Assembly: GCA_017454485.1 (NCBI GenBank)
Contig: JAFTCX010000049.1
Location: 1 to 41,805, forward strand
Source of the DNA: Clostridia bacterium
Lineage (GTDB): Bacteria > Bacillota > Clostridia > Oscillospirales > Acutalibacteraceae
DNA length: 41,805 nt
Direction: 5' to 3'
The position numbers and the translations under genes were made by a program. This document shows, in pieces, positions 95 to 40,038 of the stretch; position 1 is the first letter of the stretch; every line of letters begins with the position of its first letter. A model generated the notes under the pieces. That model was not told the DNA's origin, did not search any database, and saw only the letters and a list, made by a program, of their open reading frames with translations.

Positions 95-222
95 CGGCGG
101 GGCGAGCCGCACAGCGAACGCTGTGCGGTCAGCAGGGCGCAAGAACAACCTGCCATTTCCCGAAACGTACACCTGCGCCCTGCTGCAGCACCGCGCTGTG
201 CGCGGTGCTGCTCGCCCCGCCG
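95..222. other. Four-way-junction structured element, copy 1
   Basis: The bases pair into a cloverleaf. The closing stem is 95-107 with 210-222 (13 bp, no mismatch). Arm one is 108-116 with 119-127 (AA loop). Arm two is 130-141 with 174-185 (12 bp), with a 32-nt open loop 142-173. Arm three is 187-196 with 200-209 (TGT loop). Only three bases at the junction are unpaired. The arm-two loop holds ACAACCT at 145-151. The same fold and loop motif occur at 37885-37999 with different stem sequences. It could act as RNA or as a DNA cruciform. No open reading frame here is credible. This is not a family I recognise. Confidence 0.7.
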
Positions 223-225
223 GTG

Positions 226-278
226 TGCGCACGGCGCAGCCGTGCGCAAAAACGCCGCAGGCCGAAAGGCCTGCGGCG
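226..278. repeat. Two further strong hairpins
   Basis: A 10-bp perfect hairpin (226-235 with 239-248, GCA loop) is followed by an 11-bp perfect hairpin (253-263 with 268-278) capped by a GAAA tetraloop. They lie between the junction element and the next palindromic repeat. The whole of 1-390 is therefore hairpins with no gene. Confidence 0.8.
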
Positions 279-3349: not shown

Positions 3350-4336
3350 TTAGTTCCACGTGATGTAAACATCCAGACCGGAGACGGAATAGGTTTTATC
3401 CTTGACAAAGCCGTTGCTTTCCAGCGAAGCGGTAAACAGACCGAGCATTTTCTTGTCCTTCATCGTCAGGCGTGCGCGCATGGAGAGCTCGGAGCGGTCA
3501 CGGAAGGAATTCAGCGAACCGGGCACGAAGCCGGTGCACCACCAGTATTTCCCGTAATCGCGGGTCAAACGCTCTTCGCCGTTACGATAAAAGCTCATGG
3601 ACATATACAGCGCGTCCTCGTCGCTCACAGCGTCGTAGTGTACGCCGTCGTCGTCCGTCGGCTTATAGTAGCAGCCGATTTCGCTGCCGACAAAGACCAG
3701 CCCGTACTGCCCCTTCCAGAACTGGATGAGCCAGTCCTTTTTCTTATAAGTGAACTTCACGCGGAACGTGTCGTAATAGAAATTCAGGAACGGCGCACCG
3801 ATGTCATACAGCGCGTTGAAGCCGAAATTGCGCTGCCAAGGGTCGTTGACCGTATAATAGTAGTTGCCGTCTTTGTTGTACTGATAGCCGAGGAAGCCGT
3901 TGGAAAACACGGCGGCGCGCTGAATAACCTGTTGCGCCTCTTCCTCCGCTGTGGTTTTCGGCGCAGCGGTCGTCGTTGTGTTCAGCGTAAAGCTGTTCGT
4001 GGTGGGCGCCGTGGTGGTCACGGTGTTGTAGTCGATCGTCGGAATCTCGGTCTCCTCGGTCGCGCTTGTTAAATCGGCCATATCAAAGGTCGTGAACAGA
4101 TCGGTGTTCATCGTCTCATCGGTCGGCGCAATGAGCTGCGAGGTTTCCAGCGGTGCCGCGGTTTCGCTCGTCTGCGACTCGCTCGGCACTGCCTGCTGAT
4201 CCATGGAAGAAATGGTGACCGGCTGTTCGGTTGTCAGGTTGTTGTTGATCATCCGCACGGCAAAAAACGAGCCGGCGCAAAGGACGGTCAATACCGTCAC
4301 GATGATGATCGTTGTTTTCGGTTTATCCAGTCGCAC
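3350..4336 (-). CDS. Membrane-anchored WKGQYG-domain protein (DUF4474-like), paralog 1
   Basis: A 328-residue protein of unknown function. A single N-terminal membrane segment (about residues 8-28) acts as anchor. A Thr/Ser/Pro-rich linker (about 35-135) follows, then a domain of about 180 residues running to the C-terminus. Landmarks are LGYQY, WQRNFGF, FTYKKKDW, FWKGQYGL and YWWCTGF. The same domain is found at 31355-32692 and 36461-37789. Those copies have an Ig-like domain and a C-terminal anchor, so this one carries the domain in the opposite topology, still outside the cell. It resembles Pfam DUF4474, named from memory and unchecked. The start is GTG with AGGAGG 8 nt upstream. It lacks three cysteines that the other two share. 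Confidence 0.75.
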   Translation of the reverse strand: MRLDKPKTTIIIVTVLTVLCAGSFFAVRMINNNLTTEQPVTISSMDQQAVPSESQTSETAAPLETSQLIAPTDETMNTDLFTTFDMADLTSATEETEIPTIDYNTVTTTAPTTNSFTLNTTTTAAPKTTAEEEAQQVIQRAAVFSNGFLGYQYNKDGNYYYTVNDPWQRNFGFNALYDIGAPFLNFYYDTFRVKFTYKKKDWLIQFWKGQYGLVFVGSEIGCYYKPTDDDGVHYDAVSDEDALYMSMSFYRNGEERLTRDYGKYWWCTGFVPGSLNSFRDRSELSMRARLTMKDKKMLGLFTASLESNGFVKDKTYSVSGLDVYITWN

Positions 4337-31354: not shown

Positions 31355-32692
31355 ATGAAACTTTTCCAAAAATGCACAGCAGCGCTGCTGGTGCTGCTGA
31401 CCCTTTGCAGCTTTATGAACTGCTTCGCCGTCGGCGACACGCAGGCGGAACAGACGCCTGCCGCGCTGAGCGAAGAAGCCGCGCCCGCAGCACAGACGGA
31501 AGCTGCACCGCAGGCAACAGCAACGCTTCCGCAGGCGCCTGTCATCACAAAGATTGAAGGCTCCAACGAACCGTTTGACACGAGCCTGCCCGTTGTCGGC
31601 GAAGAGCCGGAACAGCCCGCAGAGGAACCTGCTGCACCGCAGGAGCCGCAGGCGCCCGAAACACCTGCTGCACCCGCAACGGTGAAGATTGTCACCGACA
31701 CCACGGAGCTCAAGCCCCTGTCCCGTCTGAAGCTGGACGCACAGGTCTCCGGCTTTGACGGCGACGTGAAGCTTTCCTGGGAGAGCAGCAAAAAGATTGT
31801 TGCCACTGTGAACGGGAGCGGCGAAGTGTTCGGTCTGACGGTCGGCAAAACGACCGTCACGGTCAAGGCGGAAGCCGGCGGCAAGAGCGCCACGGATTCC
31901 ATCGACATCTTTGTCACCCAGCCGTTCGGCCAAATCCACAACTTCCTGCGCGATCACGAGGTGCTCGGCTATCAGTACAGCTACCCCGATGATTACTACT
32001 ACACCAACGATAAGAAGTGCTGGCAGAAGTATTTCGGCTTCTCCAAGTTCTATGACCTCGTCTCCCCGTACATTTTGCTGGAATATGACTATGTCCGTGT
32101 TTACTTCACCTATGAAGGCAAAGACTGGATGATCCAGTTCTGGAAAGGCCAGTACGGTCTGATCTTCTACGGCTGCGAAGTCGGCGTTTACAACCGCCGC
32201 CATTCCTCCAAGGAGCCCGGCGTGTTCACCCTTTATAACTGCGCGAAGGAAGAAGACTGGATGTACATGGAGCAGAGCCTGTATCATGACACCACAGGCC
32301 TCGGCACCTACAAGCGTGAATTCACCCGCCCCTGGGATAAATACTGGTGGTGCACCGGCTTCAAGCGCGGCCATTTGCGTGTGGAAGAGCCCGCAAGAGA
32401 GCTGCGTTCCGTCGGTACGATCGAAATGAAGGATGAAGAGATGGTACGCCTGTTCACCGAAGGTCTTGAAAAGTGCGGCTTCACAAGAGTGGAATACGGC
32501 GCTGACCTCGGTCTTGACAGCTTCTCTGTGGACGGCAGAAATGTCCACTTTGTCTGGCAGAACATCTCTCACGCGGAGACCACCATGCCGGTGAAGGCGC
32601 TTGCCGTTGCCAACGTGCTCGCCCCGATTGCCGGTCCGTTTGCTATGGCAGCCATGTTCTTCCTTGACATCGGTCTGCTGCTGCTTCTGTAA
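31355..32692 (+). CDS. Secreted WKGQYG-domain protein (DUF4474-like) with Ig-like domain, paralog 2
   Basis: A 445-residue protein of unknown function. Signal peptide at 1-25; Ala/Pro/Glu-rich linker to about 107. A Big_2-type Ig-like domain spans about 108-190 (IVATVNGSGEVFGLTVGKTT). The WKGQYG domain spans about 195-410 (LGYQY, CWQKYFGF, FWKGQYGL, YWWCTGF). It ends in a hydrophobic C-terminal anchor. It is about as similar to paralog 3 as two duplicates would be, and less so to paralog 1. Cysteines in CWQ, GCE and KCGF are shared with paralog 3 only. It is followed after 10 nt by trxB, so the two are co-transcribed. GGAGG lies 7 nt before the ATG. Confidence 0.78.
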   Translation: MKLFQKCTAALLVLLTLCSFMNCFAVGDTQAEQTPAALSEEAAPAAQTEAAPQATATLPQAPVITKIEGSNEPFDTSLPVVGEEPEQPAEEPAAPQEPQAPETPAAPATVKIVTDTTELKPLSRLKLDAQVSGFDGDVKLSWESSKKIVATVNGSGEVFGLTVGKTTVTVKAEAGGKSATDSIDIFVTQPFGQIHNFLRDHEVLGYQYSYPDDYYYTNDKKCWQKYFGFSKFYDLVSPYILLEYDYVRVYFTYEGKDWMIQFWKGQYGLIFYGCEVGVYNRRHSSKEPGVFTLYNCAKEEDWMYMEQSLYHDTTGLGTYKREFTRPWDKYWWCTGFKRGHLRVEEPARELRSVGTIEMKDEEMVRLFTEGLEKCGFTRVEYGADLGLDSFSVDGRNVHFVWQNISHAETTMPVKALAVANVLAPIAGPFAMAAMFFLDIGLLLLL

Positions 32693-33642: not shown

Positions 33643-33804
33643 GGTACCCGCTGATTCACTCGGTGTGTAAAGATTGGCGAGGAAATTTTTTGTCAGATGT
33701 AACGGAAATCACGCAGACAACCTTCCGGTTTTCAAGAGATTTCCGTGCAAAATGACAGAAAATTTACCGTCAAGATTTGCACAACCGAGTGCATCAGTGG
33801 GTAC
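33643..33804. repeat. MITE-like 162-bp imperfect palindrome
   Basis: The ends are inverted repeats starting GGTACCCGCTGATTCACTCG on plus and GGTACCCACTGATGCACTCG on minus. Pairing continues inward with scattered mismatches for about 66 bp per arm (33643-33709 with 33739-33804). The remaining loop of about 28 nt holds ACAACCT at 33717-33723. The ends are the dispersed palindrome split by about 110 bp. It contains no gene. A second partial end (GTGCATCAGTAGG) follows at 33808-33820. Confidence 0.75.
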
Positions 33805-36355: not shown

Positions 36356-36392
36356 GCAAGCGCCGCCATGCCGTTGAAATATGCCGCAGGTA

Positions 36393-36421
36393 TTGACAAA
36401 TTTTTCTTTTTCCAATATAAT
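36393..36421 (+). promoter_or_regulatory. Promoter of WKGQYG paralog 3
   Basis: TTGACA (36393-36398), 17-nt spacer, TATAAT (36416-36421). Full consensus, 39 nt before the start. Confidence 0.88.
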
Positions 36422-36460
36422 AACAAAGCATTTTTTAACGAGAGACATGGAGGAACCCCA

Positions 36461-37789
36461 ATGAGATGCACAAAAAAGGCAATCGCCGTTCTGCTCGTCC
36501 TGTTGACGCTTTCCGCCTGGGCTGCTGTTTTTGCCGCCGCCCTGCCGCAGGACGCGCTGCCGGTCGAAGCCATGCAAACCCCGCTTTTGCATGATGAAAC
36601 AGCAACCCCGCCGGAGAATAAAGATAGCCTTGCTCCCGCCGCCGACAACAACGGCAAATTACGCGGGGAAACGCAGGACACTGAAGAACAGAACCCGGCG
36701 GATCCCACACCGGCATCGCAGCCTGAAACGCCGGCCAAGCAAGATCCCATTTCAGTCAGCCTGACAGCCAGCAATGTGGAAGTCACAGTGCGCAGAACCA
36801 TTCAGATGACGGCTGAAACAAAGGGCTTCACACAGACGCCGACGTTGACATGGACCAGCAGCGATGAAAGCATCGCCACGGTGGATCAGAACGGTCAGGT
36901 GAAAGGCGTCAAGGCCGGGAAAGCGACCATCACCGTGACGGCAAAAAGCGGCGACACAACCGCACAGGACAGCATGGTGATCTTTGTCATCAAGCTCAAA
37001 ACGCCGATCAAGCTTCTGCTGCAGGAATATCAGGTGCTTGGCTACAAATATCACTTCCGCGACGATTACTACTACGTCAACGATGTGCAATGCTGGCAGC
37101 GCGGCTTCGGCTTTGGCCGGTTTTACGATCTCGTTGCACCGTATATTCTGCTGGAATACGACTACGTCCGCGTGTTCTTCACCTATCAGGACAAGGACTA
37201 CATGGTGCAGCTTTGGAAGGGACAGTACGGGCTTGTGTTCTATGGCTGCGAGCAAGGCATCTATTGCAAGGAGCACAGCGACAAGCAGGATTCTGTTTTC
37301 ACCTTCTATAAATCCATGGAGCAGAACGAATGGCCAGAAATGGAGCTGACGCTGTATCACGACAAGCAGGGCAACGGCAATTACGTGCGCGAATTTACGC
37401 GCGACCGCGGCACACACTGGTGGTGCAGCGGCTTCAAGCCCGGCCACCTGCGCAAAGAAGAACCGGCAACCGAGCTGCGGCAGGAAGGCAGCATCTTCTT
37501 CAAGGATGCGGAAATGGCGCGCCTGTTTGCCGACGGGCTGAAGGTCTGCGGCTTTGGCGAAGCGAAGGACGCCGAAAGCATGGAGCTGGATGAATACAAC
37601 CTGAACGGGTCAACCGTCTCCTTCCGCTGGCAGAACATCAACGACGCAGAGACCACCATGCCAATCAAAATTGCAGGCGGCACGGCCTTTGCGGTCGGCG
37701 GTCTGGCGTTCATCGTCGGTCTGCTCCTCCTGCTGGCCATCATTGCTATGATGGGTATGGGCATTATGCTCTTCATCATCATCCTTTAA
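36461..37789 (+). CDS. Secreted WKGQYG-domain protein (DUF4474-like) with Ig-like domain, paralog 3
   Basis: A 442-residue protein of unknown function. Signal peptide at 1-26; Pro/Thr/Asn-rich linker to about 92. A Big_2 Ig-like domain spans about 94-180 (ESIATVDQNGQVKGVKAGKA). The WKGQYG domain spans about 185-395 (LGYKY, CWQRGFGF, LWKGQYGL, HWWCSGF). It ends in a long, Gly/Met/Ile-rich C-terminal membrane segment. The domain order equals paralog 2, so the two probably arose by duplication with pnuC, the lipase-like gene and others now between them. Unlike paralog 2 it stands alone. GGAGG lies 7 nt before the ATG. Confidence 0.78.
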   Translation: MRCTKKAIAVLLVLLTLSAWAAVFAAALPQDALPVEAMQTPLLHDETATPPENKDSLAPAADNNGKLRGETQDTEEQNPADPTPASQPETPAKQDPISVSLTASNVEVTVRRTIQMTAETKGFTQTPTLTWTSSDESIATVDQNGQVKGVKAGKATITVTAKSGDTTAQDSMVIFVIKLKTPIKLLLQEYQVLGYKYHFRDDYYYVNDVQCWQRGFGFGRFYDLVAPYILLEYDYVRVFFTYQDKDYMVQLWKGQYGLVFYGCEQGIYCKEHSDKQDSVFTFYKSMEQNEWPEMELTLYHDKQGNGNYVREFTRDRGTHWWCSGFKPGHLRKEEPATELRQEGSIFFKDAEMARLFADGLKVCGFGEAKDAESMELDEYNLNGSTVSFRWQNINDAETTMPIKIAGGTAFAVGGLAFIVGLLLLLAIIAMMGMGIMLFIIIL

Positions 37790-37809
37790 TGATCGGAGCT
37801 GTCCTGCTG

Positions 37810-37850
37810 AGTCCCCGCTGATTCACTCGGTGCGTGAATCAGCGGGGACT
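37810..37850. repeat. Dispersed palindromic repeat, copy at 37.8 kb
   Basis: A perfect 17-bp inverted repeat (37810-37826 with 37834-37850) around TCGGTGC. It is the best preserved copy. It follows paralog 3 by 20 nt but lacks a T-run, so terminator function is doubtful. GGTACCCGC, the end sequence of the 33643 element, occurs again at 37868. Confidence 0.92.
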
Positions 37851-37884
37851 TCACCGTCGCAGCGGTAGGTACCCGCTTCGGCAA

Positions 37885-37999
37885 GCGGCGGGATCGCGGC
37901 TGCGCCGCGCGAAAAGGGGCGCAAACGCGCGTATCAAGGTTGGTTAGGTTGTCCCCTGCCCCTTTTCGAAACCGCGCTGCGCGCGGTTTATCCCGCCGC
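37885..37999. other. Four-way-junction structured element, copy 2
   Basis: The closing stem is 37885-37894 with 37990-37999 (10 bp). Arm one is 37895-37900 with 37904-37909. Arm two is 37910-37920 with 37958-37968 (11 bp), with a 37-nt open loop. Arm three is 37969-37977 with 37981-37989. Every base at the junction is paired, so the four helices abut with no linker. The long loop carries AGGTTGT at 37946-37952, the complement of the ACAACCT in the copy at 95-222. Arm order and loop size match that copy, while stem sequences differ. Function unknown. Confidence 0.72.
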
Positions 38000-38032
38000 G
38001 GACGGCCGCTCCCGATCCTGCACCGGTAATAT

Positions 38033-38063
38033 AAAAAGGCAGCCGCGCATTTGCGCGGCTGCC
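38033..38063 (-). terminator. Terminator of the 620-residue surface-protein gene
   Basis: On minus, a 12-bp perfect GC-rich stem (38052-38063 with 38038-38049) followed by T5 (A-run 38033-38037). Confidence 0.92.
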
Positions 38064-38071
38064 GCAGTTAT

Positions 38072-39934
38072 TTAATCCAGCTCTTCTTCGTCAAAGCTTT
38101 TCTCTGTGCTCAGATCGGGGAAGCTGTTGTCCTCCTCCGATTCGTGACGTTCGTCCTTGCGCTTCTTGTTCCACACATATCCGGCCAAACCGCCGAGGGC
38201 GATGATGCCGGTGGGTGCGGCGGCAATTTCGGGGTTCTCCTTGATCGCCTCCCAGGCGCGGGTGCCGAGTGAAGCGTCGTTGCTGACCGGCTTGTCCAGT
38301 ACAAGTTCATTGTCGGACGGTGTTGTGATCTCGTCCACAGCGTAGGTTTCGCCGATGAACTGGTTGAAATAGCTCGCGTCGTCGCTGACTTCCGCCTGTG
38401 TGTCAAAGAGGGCGGACGGATCTTCGATCGGCTCAAGGACGATGCTGTTGTCCAAGCTGTCAATGGCGCTCAAATCAAAGATCGCATTGTCTCCCTGCGC
38501 TTCCACGGCGCTGATCACATGGTTCACCATATCCTGCGCCGCCTGTGCTTCTTTGGAGGCGTTGGAGTTCACAAGGGTCTGCATCTGATCCAGCAGATTG
38601 CTGCCGTTTTCGGTCGTTTGCGCCGCCGCGGCGCCGGTTTTGTAGACGTTAAACGTGTAGGTCACTGTGTCGGTGTTGGCAAAGGAACCGTCGTTGTATG
38701 TCACAGTCAGATCGATCTGTTCGGGTGCGTTGGTGCCGTTCAGTGCGGCGGCCGCCGTTGCGTTGGAGCGCATCTCTGTGCCGTTCAGCGTGACCAGCAC
38801 GTTTGCGTTGCTGCCGCCGAGCTGATCCGCAAGGGAAATCGGCGTGAACCAAACCTTTTTGCTGTCGGCGGCGACAAAGAGATCGTAGTTGAAGATGTCG
38901 CTGAAGAATTCTTCGTCCAGATCAAAGCAGCCGGCAAGGCAGGCCATATCAAACAATTCCTCGGTCGAGACGGAATCGCTGTAAGGCACGTCCTTTTCGT
39001 CGAGCATCGTTTTCAAAATGAGCGTCTGCACGGCGTTTTCTTTACCGCTCTTGTCAGCGTCGGAAAGACGCACGGGATTGATCGTCACATCGTATGCCGT
39101 GTTGAGGATCGAAGCATAATACGCGTAGTCCACATATTCCTTCTGCGCGCCGTTCGTTTCTTCATAGGGCGTCAGCGGAACCTTGTAGCTTTGCGCGGCG
39201 GCGGTGAGCACCTTGGACCAGTGGAATATCTCGGCGTTGCTCGGGTTTTCGCTCAACGGCAGCTCCGGGAATTCCTGCACATGGGTCTTGACCGCCTGCA
39301 CGGCGAAACCGTTGATGGTTGTGACGCCGGAGGGCAGGAACACCCCTGTCAGTTCAGAGAGGATGATAATCTGAGCGGCTTCCAGCGTGATGCCCTTGGG
39401 CAGTGTAACTTCCTTTCCATACAGCGTGTAAACGGCGTTGTATCGCAGTGCGGCATAAACCACAGCGACAGCCGGTGTATCCTGCGGCGTCAGCTCCTGC
39501 GGAAGAACAATGCCATACGCTTCCAGATATTCGGTCATGGTCGGCAGATCGTCGGTCATGCCCATTGCGGTTGCGGTATAATAGAAGAGGGTCAGAACTT
39601 CGTCATAGGCCTGTCCGACATTTTCTTCGTTCAAATCGTTCAGTTTTGTATATCGGTCCACTTCGGTGAGGAACTGATCGTATGTTTGGCTGTACGGATA
39701 CTCCGCACGCGGCACGATCTTCGCCGTTGTGAAAGAATTTGCGTTATCGCGAATAATCAAGGTGTCCAGCCACGCCATTGTCGGCTGTGACGAGGCAAAA
39801 CGCGGGTGACCGGCAACCACTTCCGGCTTCCCGTTCTGCAAAGTCACGCCCGCAAACGCGAGCATCGGGGAAATCGCCAGACAGAGGATCAACAGCGCCG
39901 TCACGCCGGCCGCAAAAGGCTTTATCAATCTCAA
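38072..39934 (-). CDS. Large unknown exported protein with C-terminal membrane anchor
   Basis: A 620-residue protein of unknown function. N-terminal signal peptide (about 1-27, ending AFA-G). The helical body (about 60-350) is rich in Tyr, Thr and acidic residues. A beta-rich module spans about 370-445 (VLVTLNGTEMRSN to TYTFNVYK) and recalls cadherin-like beta-sandwich domains. An acidic Asn/Asp/Glu-rich spacer, one membrane segment (about 575-592) and an acidic cytosolic tail follow. The start is uncertain: the GTG at 39943 overlaps its AAAGGAG site, so the TTG at 39934 (10-nt spacing) is preferred. It has its own promoter and terminator. It may be a cell-surface sensor or adhesin; the sequence does not decide. 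Confidence 0.65.
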   Translation of the reverse strand: MRLIKPFAAGVTALLILCLAISPMLAFAGVTLQNGKPEVVAGHPRFASSQPTMAWLDTLIIRDNANSFTTAKIVPRAEYPYSQTYDQFLTEVDRYTKLNDLNEENVGQAYDEVLTLFYYTATAMGMTDDLPTMTEYLEAYGIVLPQELTPQDTPAVAVVYAALRYNAVYTLYGKEVTLPKGITLEAAQIIILSELTGVFLPSGVTTINGFAVQAVKTHVQEFPELPLSENPSNAEIFHWSKVLTAAAQSYKVPLTPYEETNGAQKEYVDYAYYASILNTAYDVTINPVRLSDADKSGKENAVQTLILKTMLDEKDVPYSDSVSTEELFDMACLAGCFDLDEEFFSDIFNYDLFVAADSKKVWFTPISLADQLGGSNANVLVTLNGTEMRSNATAAAALNGTNAPEQIDLTVTYNDGSFANTDTVTYTFNVYKTGAAAAQTTENGSNLLDQMQTLVNSNASKEAQAAQDMVNHVISAVEAQGDNAIFDLSAIDSLDNSIVLEPIEDPSALFDTQAEVSDDASYFNQFIGETYAVDEITTPSDNELVLDKPVSNDASLGTRAWEAIKENPEIAAAPTGIIALGGLAGYVWNKKRKDERHESEEDNSFPDLSTEKSFDEEELD

Positions 39935-40038
39935 CGGATACACACTCCTTTGTTCGTTACACGTTCCATTTCAAAAAGGCATTCGTCCGTTTTTTCAAAA
40001 AATCAGACGACACTCCGAGATATCTTTATACACGCTAT

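Follow-up and report, generated by a model that had tools for sequence, protein, structure and literature searches.

A genus-restricted family of cloverleaf-type palindromic repeats whose fold is probably kept by DNA-level copying

The contig analysed here, a stretch of 41,805 nucleotides from a Clostridia bacterium (hereafter the window), folds at positions 37885 to 37999 into a four-way junction, and the question raised by this locus is what kind of element it represents: a structured RNA, a boundary between genes, a dispersed DNA repeat, or a fold due to chance. The sequence is intergenic and lies between two convergent genes. The gene on its 5' side (36368..37789, plus strand) encodes a protein with Big_2 and DUF4474 domains and ends 95 nt before the element. 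The gene on its 3' side (38072..39943, minus strand), whose product has no Pfam match, ends 72 nt after it and has a homologue in all 34 genomes of the genus, the own genome included. A terminator-like hairpin of this convergent gene (38038..38063, minus strand) is found apart from the cloverleaf, and no promoter-like site was detected in 37700-38150. The window also contains two diverged duplicated stretches, 31946-32178 and 37019-37251 (73% over 233 nt), with an inverted match at 3519-3568; one of them is inside the DUF4474 gene, which suggests paralogues.

A first-pass annotation had described the fold as a closing stem, a short hairpin, a long-loop arm and another short hairpin, joined without any unpaired junction base. 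For 37885-37999, folding and an exact-stem scanner both returned this arm order and an exact junction. The closing stem P1, which aligns with the family described below, has 10 bp (37885..37894 pairing with 37990..37999). Arm P2 (37895..37909) is a 6-bp hairpin with the 3-nt loop TGC, P3 (37910..37968) has 11 bp and a 37-nt loop (37921-37957), and P4 (37969..37989) has 9 bp and again a TGC loop of 3 nt. The minimum free energy is -67.4 kcal/mol on the plus strand, with z-scores of -4.3 (plus) and -4.9 (minus), and none of 200 shuffled sequences reached this stability on either strand; these energies use RNA parameters, and they rank with coarse gene calling, approximate model E-values and the fragmentation of the assemblies as the chief limitations of the analysis. 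The second cloverleaf of the window (95..222) has a P1 of 12 bp (95-106/211-222), a P2 at 107-128, a P3 at 130-185 (12 bp, 32-nt loop) and a P4 at 186-210. Here the absence of free junction bases did not hold, as the scanner places a single unpaired base at 129. This fold is the stronger of the two (z -7.1), and it is adjoined by an accessory hairpin (226..248) of the GCGCACGGC..GCCGTGCGC type, found next to many copies. In 804 kb (the window plus 762 kb of own-genome sequence), the exact scanner detected 13 junctions with three arms and 7 with two, versus 0 and 1, respectively, in the same 804 kb shuffled once. Palindromes of another family, whose core is TGATTCAC..GTGAATCA, are present at 1-37, 302-339, 33644-33671 and 37811-37849, the last copy sitting 35 nt upstream of the cloverleaf at 37885.

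Nine scanner-found copies proved to be similar elements of 88-90 nt, with which 37885-37999 aligns. A first covariance model was made of 11 sequences, with the 37885-37999 copy in and the 95-222 copy out. At E<=0.01 (E-values are rough) and counting both strands, it gave 62 matches in the own genome (G000), 93 in G004 and 68 in G019, the latter being two related genomes rich in elements; a broader model gave 70 to 94 matches in each of the three, both strands counted. These element-rich genomes look like one clade, since identity of the neighbouring protein is 92% in G019 and 77% in G004 and does not exceed 51% in other genomes of the genus. The model scored 37885-37999 at 65.8 bits and 95-222 at 60.4 bits, even though the latter was absent from it, indicating that the stems of both window copies are related. 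Moreover, GGCGGG and CCCGCC are common to the two closing stems, so that the earlier description of the stems as unrelated has to be abandoned. The opposite orientation proposed for the two copies is not clear either: the model prefers the plus strand for both (65.8 versus 49.1 and 60.4 versus 46.3 bits), while the hairpin adjoining 95-222 would suggest the minus strand for that copy, contrary to the model.

That orientation had been read from a word in the long loops, AGGTTGT at 37946-37952 and its complement ACAACCT in 95-222. The complementary match is present, but it fits chance: 261 of 1128 long-loop pairs have some 7-mer in common on either strand, and shuffles of both window loops yield a common 7-mer in 6.7% of cases. 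Of 48 long loops, 2 contain the word, and both orthologues of 37885-37999, in which the P3 loop differs, lack it. We therefore rejected it as a family mark. A genome search for ACAACCT followed by CC, as the first-pass annotation had suggested, was uninformative (83 forward and 109 reverse matches; the control, the pattern reversed, gave 108 and 48). Of the proposal that fold and loop word together mark a real family, as of the suggested comparison with shuffled sequence, the half that concerns the fold stood and the half that concerns the word fell.

At least 149 distinct elements were extracted (49 from the own genome, 55 from G004 and 45 from G019), which are minimum counts, as the weaker places in G004 and G019 were only partly fetched; a few of the elements are cut by contig ends. 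The actual number of copies is probably higher, since several elements lie at contig ends of G000 (C66:8-127, C24:32-121, C17:20-144, C45:23-131). Lengths are mostly 82 to 151 nt, with 86 elements below 104 nt and 63 of 104 nt or more, the longer ones mostly with an enlarged middle arm, and near-identical subfamilies are present. Either DNA strand can form a nearly perfect four-way cloverleaf, often with one extra hairpin per side: further perfect hairpins lie no more than 45 nt away on the left side in 92/140 elements and on the right side in 89/140, as compared to 1/270 distant windows and 2/280 shuffles. Cloverleafs of the 88-90-nt subfamily sit inside longer repeat blocks (about 1 kb at L036:14243-15253), with upstream sequence common among G000 and G019 copies. 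Two different cloverleafs lie 27 nt apart at L151:987-1077 and 1105-1186. Another dispersed repeat, about 165 nt long (L036:18488-18654) and distinct from the cloverleaf, has many matches in G019 and G004.

The family is a genus-restricted cloverleaf-type palindromic repeat, of which 37885-37999 is a divergent copy. The first model matched 5 of 59 relatives at E<=0.01 and 7 of the 34 genus genomes at E<=0.001, three of them richly. The broader model matched 8 of the 34, and with stricter filters its only match in an order-wide draw of 147 was the own genome. Searching one pattern against a collection of 84,980 species, which may leave out the own genome, returned 56 stretches, 50 in G004 and G019 and 6 in unrelated bacteria. 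Structure-only scans added cloverleafs whose stems are largely different, in G002, G005, G009, G020, G025, G011 and G014. Under a strict definition (closing stem of at least 9 bp, end arms of at least 5 bp with loops of up to 8, at most 2 unpaired bases), six congener matches were found, 3 of them in loci already picked by the model, and none in 352 kb of out-of-genus sequence or in 2.1 Mb block-shuffled three times. The structure matches in G002 (3 and 4 unpaired bases) fall outside this definition, as does a three-arm match in the out-of-genus G048 (four unpaired bases, 6-bp arms). Among eight congeners sampled by 80-115 kb of contig, seven were without a match by the strict definition and six by a looser scan.

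The fold is kept while the letters change, as the first-pass annotation had supposed. In the first alignment, double-sided change was seen in 17 of 40 pairs, compared to 0-4 in slid controls. An alignment of 150 rows, which contains both strands of many elements and is fitted to the structure, has 1705 double-sided cells versus 156-401 when slid and a shuffle mean of 432; all 40 of its pairs show double-sided change, but so do 24-31 slid pairs (shuffle mean 34). In the 144 of 149 elements with a clean fold, 4554 of 4636 interior pairs are Watson-Crick (98%), 43 are G-U (about 1%) and 17 are A-C, the last two mostly in P3; the helices were taken from RNA folds, which favour G-U. On the transcript strand of elements between tandem genes, G-U and A-C number 5 versus 7, and on the element strand 9 versus 4 in convergent and 3 versus 1 in divergent contexts. 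Tandem-context elements are about as pure as the rest (1343/1357 pairs Watson-Crick), without strand bias. This covariation pattern differs from that expected of an RNA family, with few G-U pairs and no tandem transcript-strand excess of G-U over A-C.

We found 30 orthologous element pairs with both flanks in common. In pairs of the same orientation, 552 helix pairs were unchanged, 60 showed double-sided change and 8 single-sided change, although in P3 the comparison was confined to the outer 8 pairs and the dropping of 23 unequal-length helices may hide single-sided changes at helix ends. Between G000 and G019, loops are 50-63% identical, the 60-nt flanks 88% ungapped and 77% gapped, and stem bases about 95% ungapped; as the stems are more conserved than the flanks (about 95% versus 88%), the structure may be under selection. 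Loops recur in inverted form. Where elements share an inner stem, loops occurred as reverse complement rather than complement in 59 versus 7 comparisons for P2, 31 versus 0 for P3 and 117 versus 10 for P4 (pairs are non-independent). Of 49 orthologous loops compared, 38 unequal or large ones being left out, 14 were identical, 6 reverse complement, 0 complement and 0 reverse; two of the six belong to the inverted window/G004 pair and may restate that inversion. Judged by the model-preferred strand, 6 of the 29 pairs of orthologues had the whole element inverted between the same flanks (1/15 G000-G019 pairs, 5/14 pairs involving G004); these inversions fall at 5 loci. At the 37885-37999 locus itself, the arm order is reversed in G004 and as in the window in G019.

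Gain or loss was observed at one orthologous site. The gene pair at L036:14959 is about 90 nt apart and without element in G004, and about 1 kb apart, cloverleaf included, in G000; the cloverleaf is also present in G019. No target site duplication was evident at this one empty site, inside a composite block of about 1 kb. Terminal inverted repeats, a feature of MITEs, are present as closing stem P1 (10 bp in 37885-37999). The palindrome size of REPs (20-40 bp) is exceeded by these four-way elements, and no dedicated transposase was found. The Y1 transposase domain PF01797 was matched in each of the three rich genomes, with a single weak match (22.3 bits) in the own genome, and also in 18 of the 31 remaining congeners. 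In Rfam, only tRNA reached the gathering threshold for the window, and 7 loci gave 3 weak matches, none at that threshold.

Elements are preferentially located between convergent genes. Of the 131 elements that could be placed with a crude ORF caller, 66 were in convergent, 49 in tandem and 16 in divergent contexts, compared to 33, 98 and 34 of 165 own-genome regions of at least 150 nt (convergent preference, p 7e-8); in the own genome alone, 16 of 35 elements were between convergent genes. In tandem contexts, the element was opposite in orientation in 27 cases and the same in 22. A further comparison used the gene that neighbours the element in the window, for which 30 of 34 genus loci were fetched. 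A cloverleaf follows it in 5 of 7 loci with a convergent next gene and in none of 20 with a tandem one (p 0.0003, uncorrected for relatedness); sorting was by eye, with the downstream starts in G001 and G023 read as tandem against the longest ORF, and 3 of 30 loci were left unsorted, including G019, with its element at a contig end. The stems of these cloverleafs differ, and the one in G002 has 3 unpaired bases and falls outside the strict definition. In G017 and G024 the next gene is convergent, yet no element is present at the locus. A relaxed scan after this gene also gave long-loop matches in G007, G015, G018 and G028, and a second one in G014, which we treated as chance.

This preference is what one would predict for a functional two-strand boundary element, in which transcripts from both sides fold between convergent genes and serve as bidirectional terminator, read-through block or protection of mRNA 3' ends. 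Watson-Crick purity would likewise be expected where both strands must fold, and the appearance of cloverleafs with differing stems after the neighbour gene in convergent loci points the same way. We nevertheless regard this function as less likely, as purity is much the same between tandem genes, where strand bias is also absent, the window locus already has a separate terminator-like hairpin, and two convergent congeners lack the element. A related and equally tentative proposal is that DNA cloverleafs throughout the genus would form one class whose inherited unit is geometry and not sequence: a closing stem, then a short hairpin, a middle arm that varies and another short hairpin, with hardly any unpaired base at the junction. 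Stems would be rewritten by hairpin-templated copying, elements would flip in place, and unrelated versions would recur at convergent gene ends, where a structure-reading protein or the transcription or replication machinery might use them as boundary marks.

A structured non-coding RNA acting from one strand could explain the strong covariation, the stable folds and the overall excess of G-U over A-C (43 versus 17). It appears very unlikely, given that G-U makes up only about 1% of interior pairs, tandem contexts show neither strand bias nor a preferred orientation, loops are unconserved and whole elements inverted, and neither Rfam (tRNA excepted) nor the search of 37700-38150 for promoter-like sites gave support. 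Movement of a RAYT/REP-type element by a Y1 tyrosine transposase agrees with the likeness of high-copy palindromes near gene 3' ends to REPs (PMC3733652), and with the PF01797 match in all three rich genomes. As the domain is also common in other congeners and weak in the own genome, it neither supports nor argues against such a route, and the units exceed REP length; we hold this origin improbable. Lastly, a chance fold of GC-rich sequence joined to a chance word would account for the loop word by itself. It is refuted by the shuffles, with their 0 three-arm junctions, and by the orthologous copies of 37885-37999 in two further genomes, and keeps next to no probability.

The reading we favour, with a probability of roughly two in three, is that 37885-37999 is a diverged member of a family of composite, REP/MITE-like palindromes that lie between genes, are confined to the genus and have their fold kept by DNA-level copying. 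DNA that is single-stranded during replication, or extruded as a cruciform, would fold up, and the polymerase might then switch template within or across the palindrome. Such a switch would rewrite one stem side from the other, flip loops and occasionally flip the whole element, so that geometry persists while letters drift. Coordinated double-sided changes and loop inversions, as expected of hairpins maintained in this way, are both present, and it is from these patterns that we infer template switching; conversion or replacement by another copy could explain some of the double-sided changes. New copies would arise as non-autonomous mobile DNA, and may survive best at convergent sites, which contain no promoter to break. 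A functional RNA is usually argued from compensatory change. With its strong covariation, about 1% wobble pairs and inversions of loops and whole elements, the family thus offers a natural test set for covariation made by DNA replication alone.

No four-way repeat family was named among the open-access PMC matches listed, which makes no claim of absence from print. The closest known systems share some of the features. REP, BIME and REPIN sequences (GTAG- or CGTC-tagged) are, as described in PMC3733652, high-copy intergenic palindromes of 20-40 bp, mostly between convergent or unidirectional genes. Our family resembles them in being high-copy, intergenic, often between convergent genes and possibly non-autonomous mobile DNA, but it differs by a four-way cloverleaf of mostly 82-151 nt with flanking hairpins. 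The bacterial MITEs ERIC, RUP, NEMIS, RPE and CIR, as described in PMC2229807, are about 100-200 bp long, mostly with terminal inverted repeats and stably folding transcripts. Size, terminal inverted repeats and stable folds are comparable in the family. In that description, however, these MITEs are end-paired stem-loops (two arms in CIR), mostly A+T-rich and with TA ends, whereas the family has GC-rich stems and three arms within a closing stem, and duplication was not found. Template-switch maintenance of hairpins, with double-sided stem changes and loop inversions, is described in PMC8794818 from rRNA gene histories, including bacterial examples. The same two signatures are found here; unlike those rRNA-gene cases, they occur in a dispersed DNA repeat family, which in addition shows inversion of whole multi-arm elements between the same flanks. 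To the intergenic palindromes of bacteria, described as stem-loops in one review (PMC2229807), the family adds a multi-arm shape.
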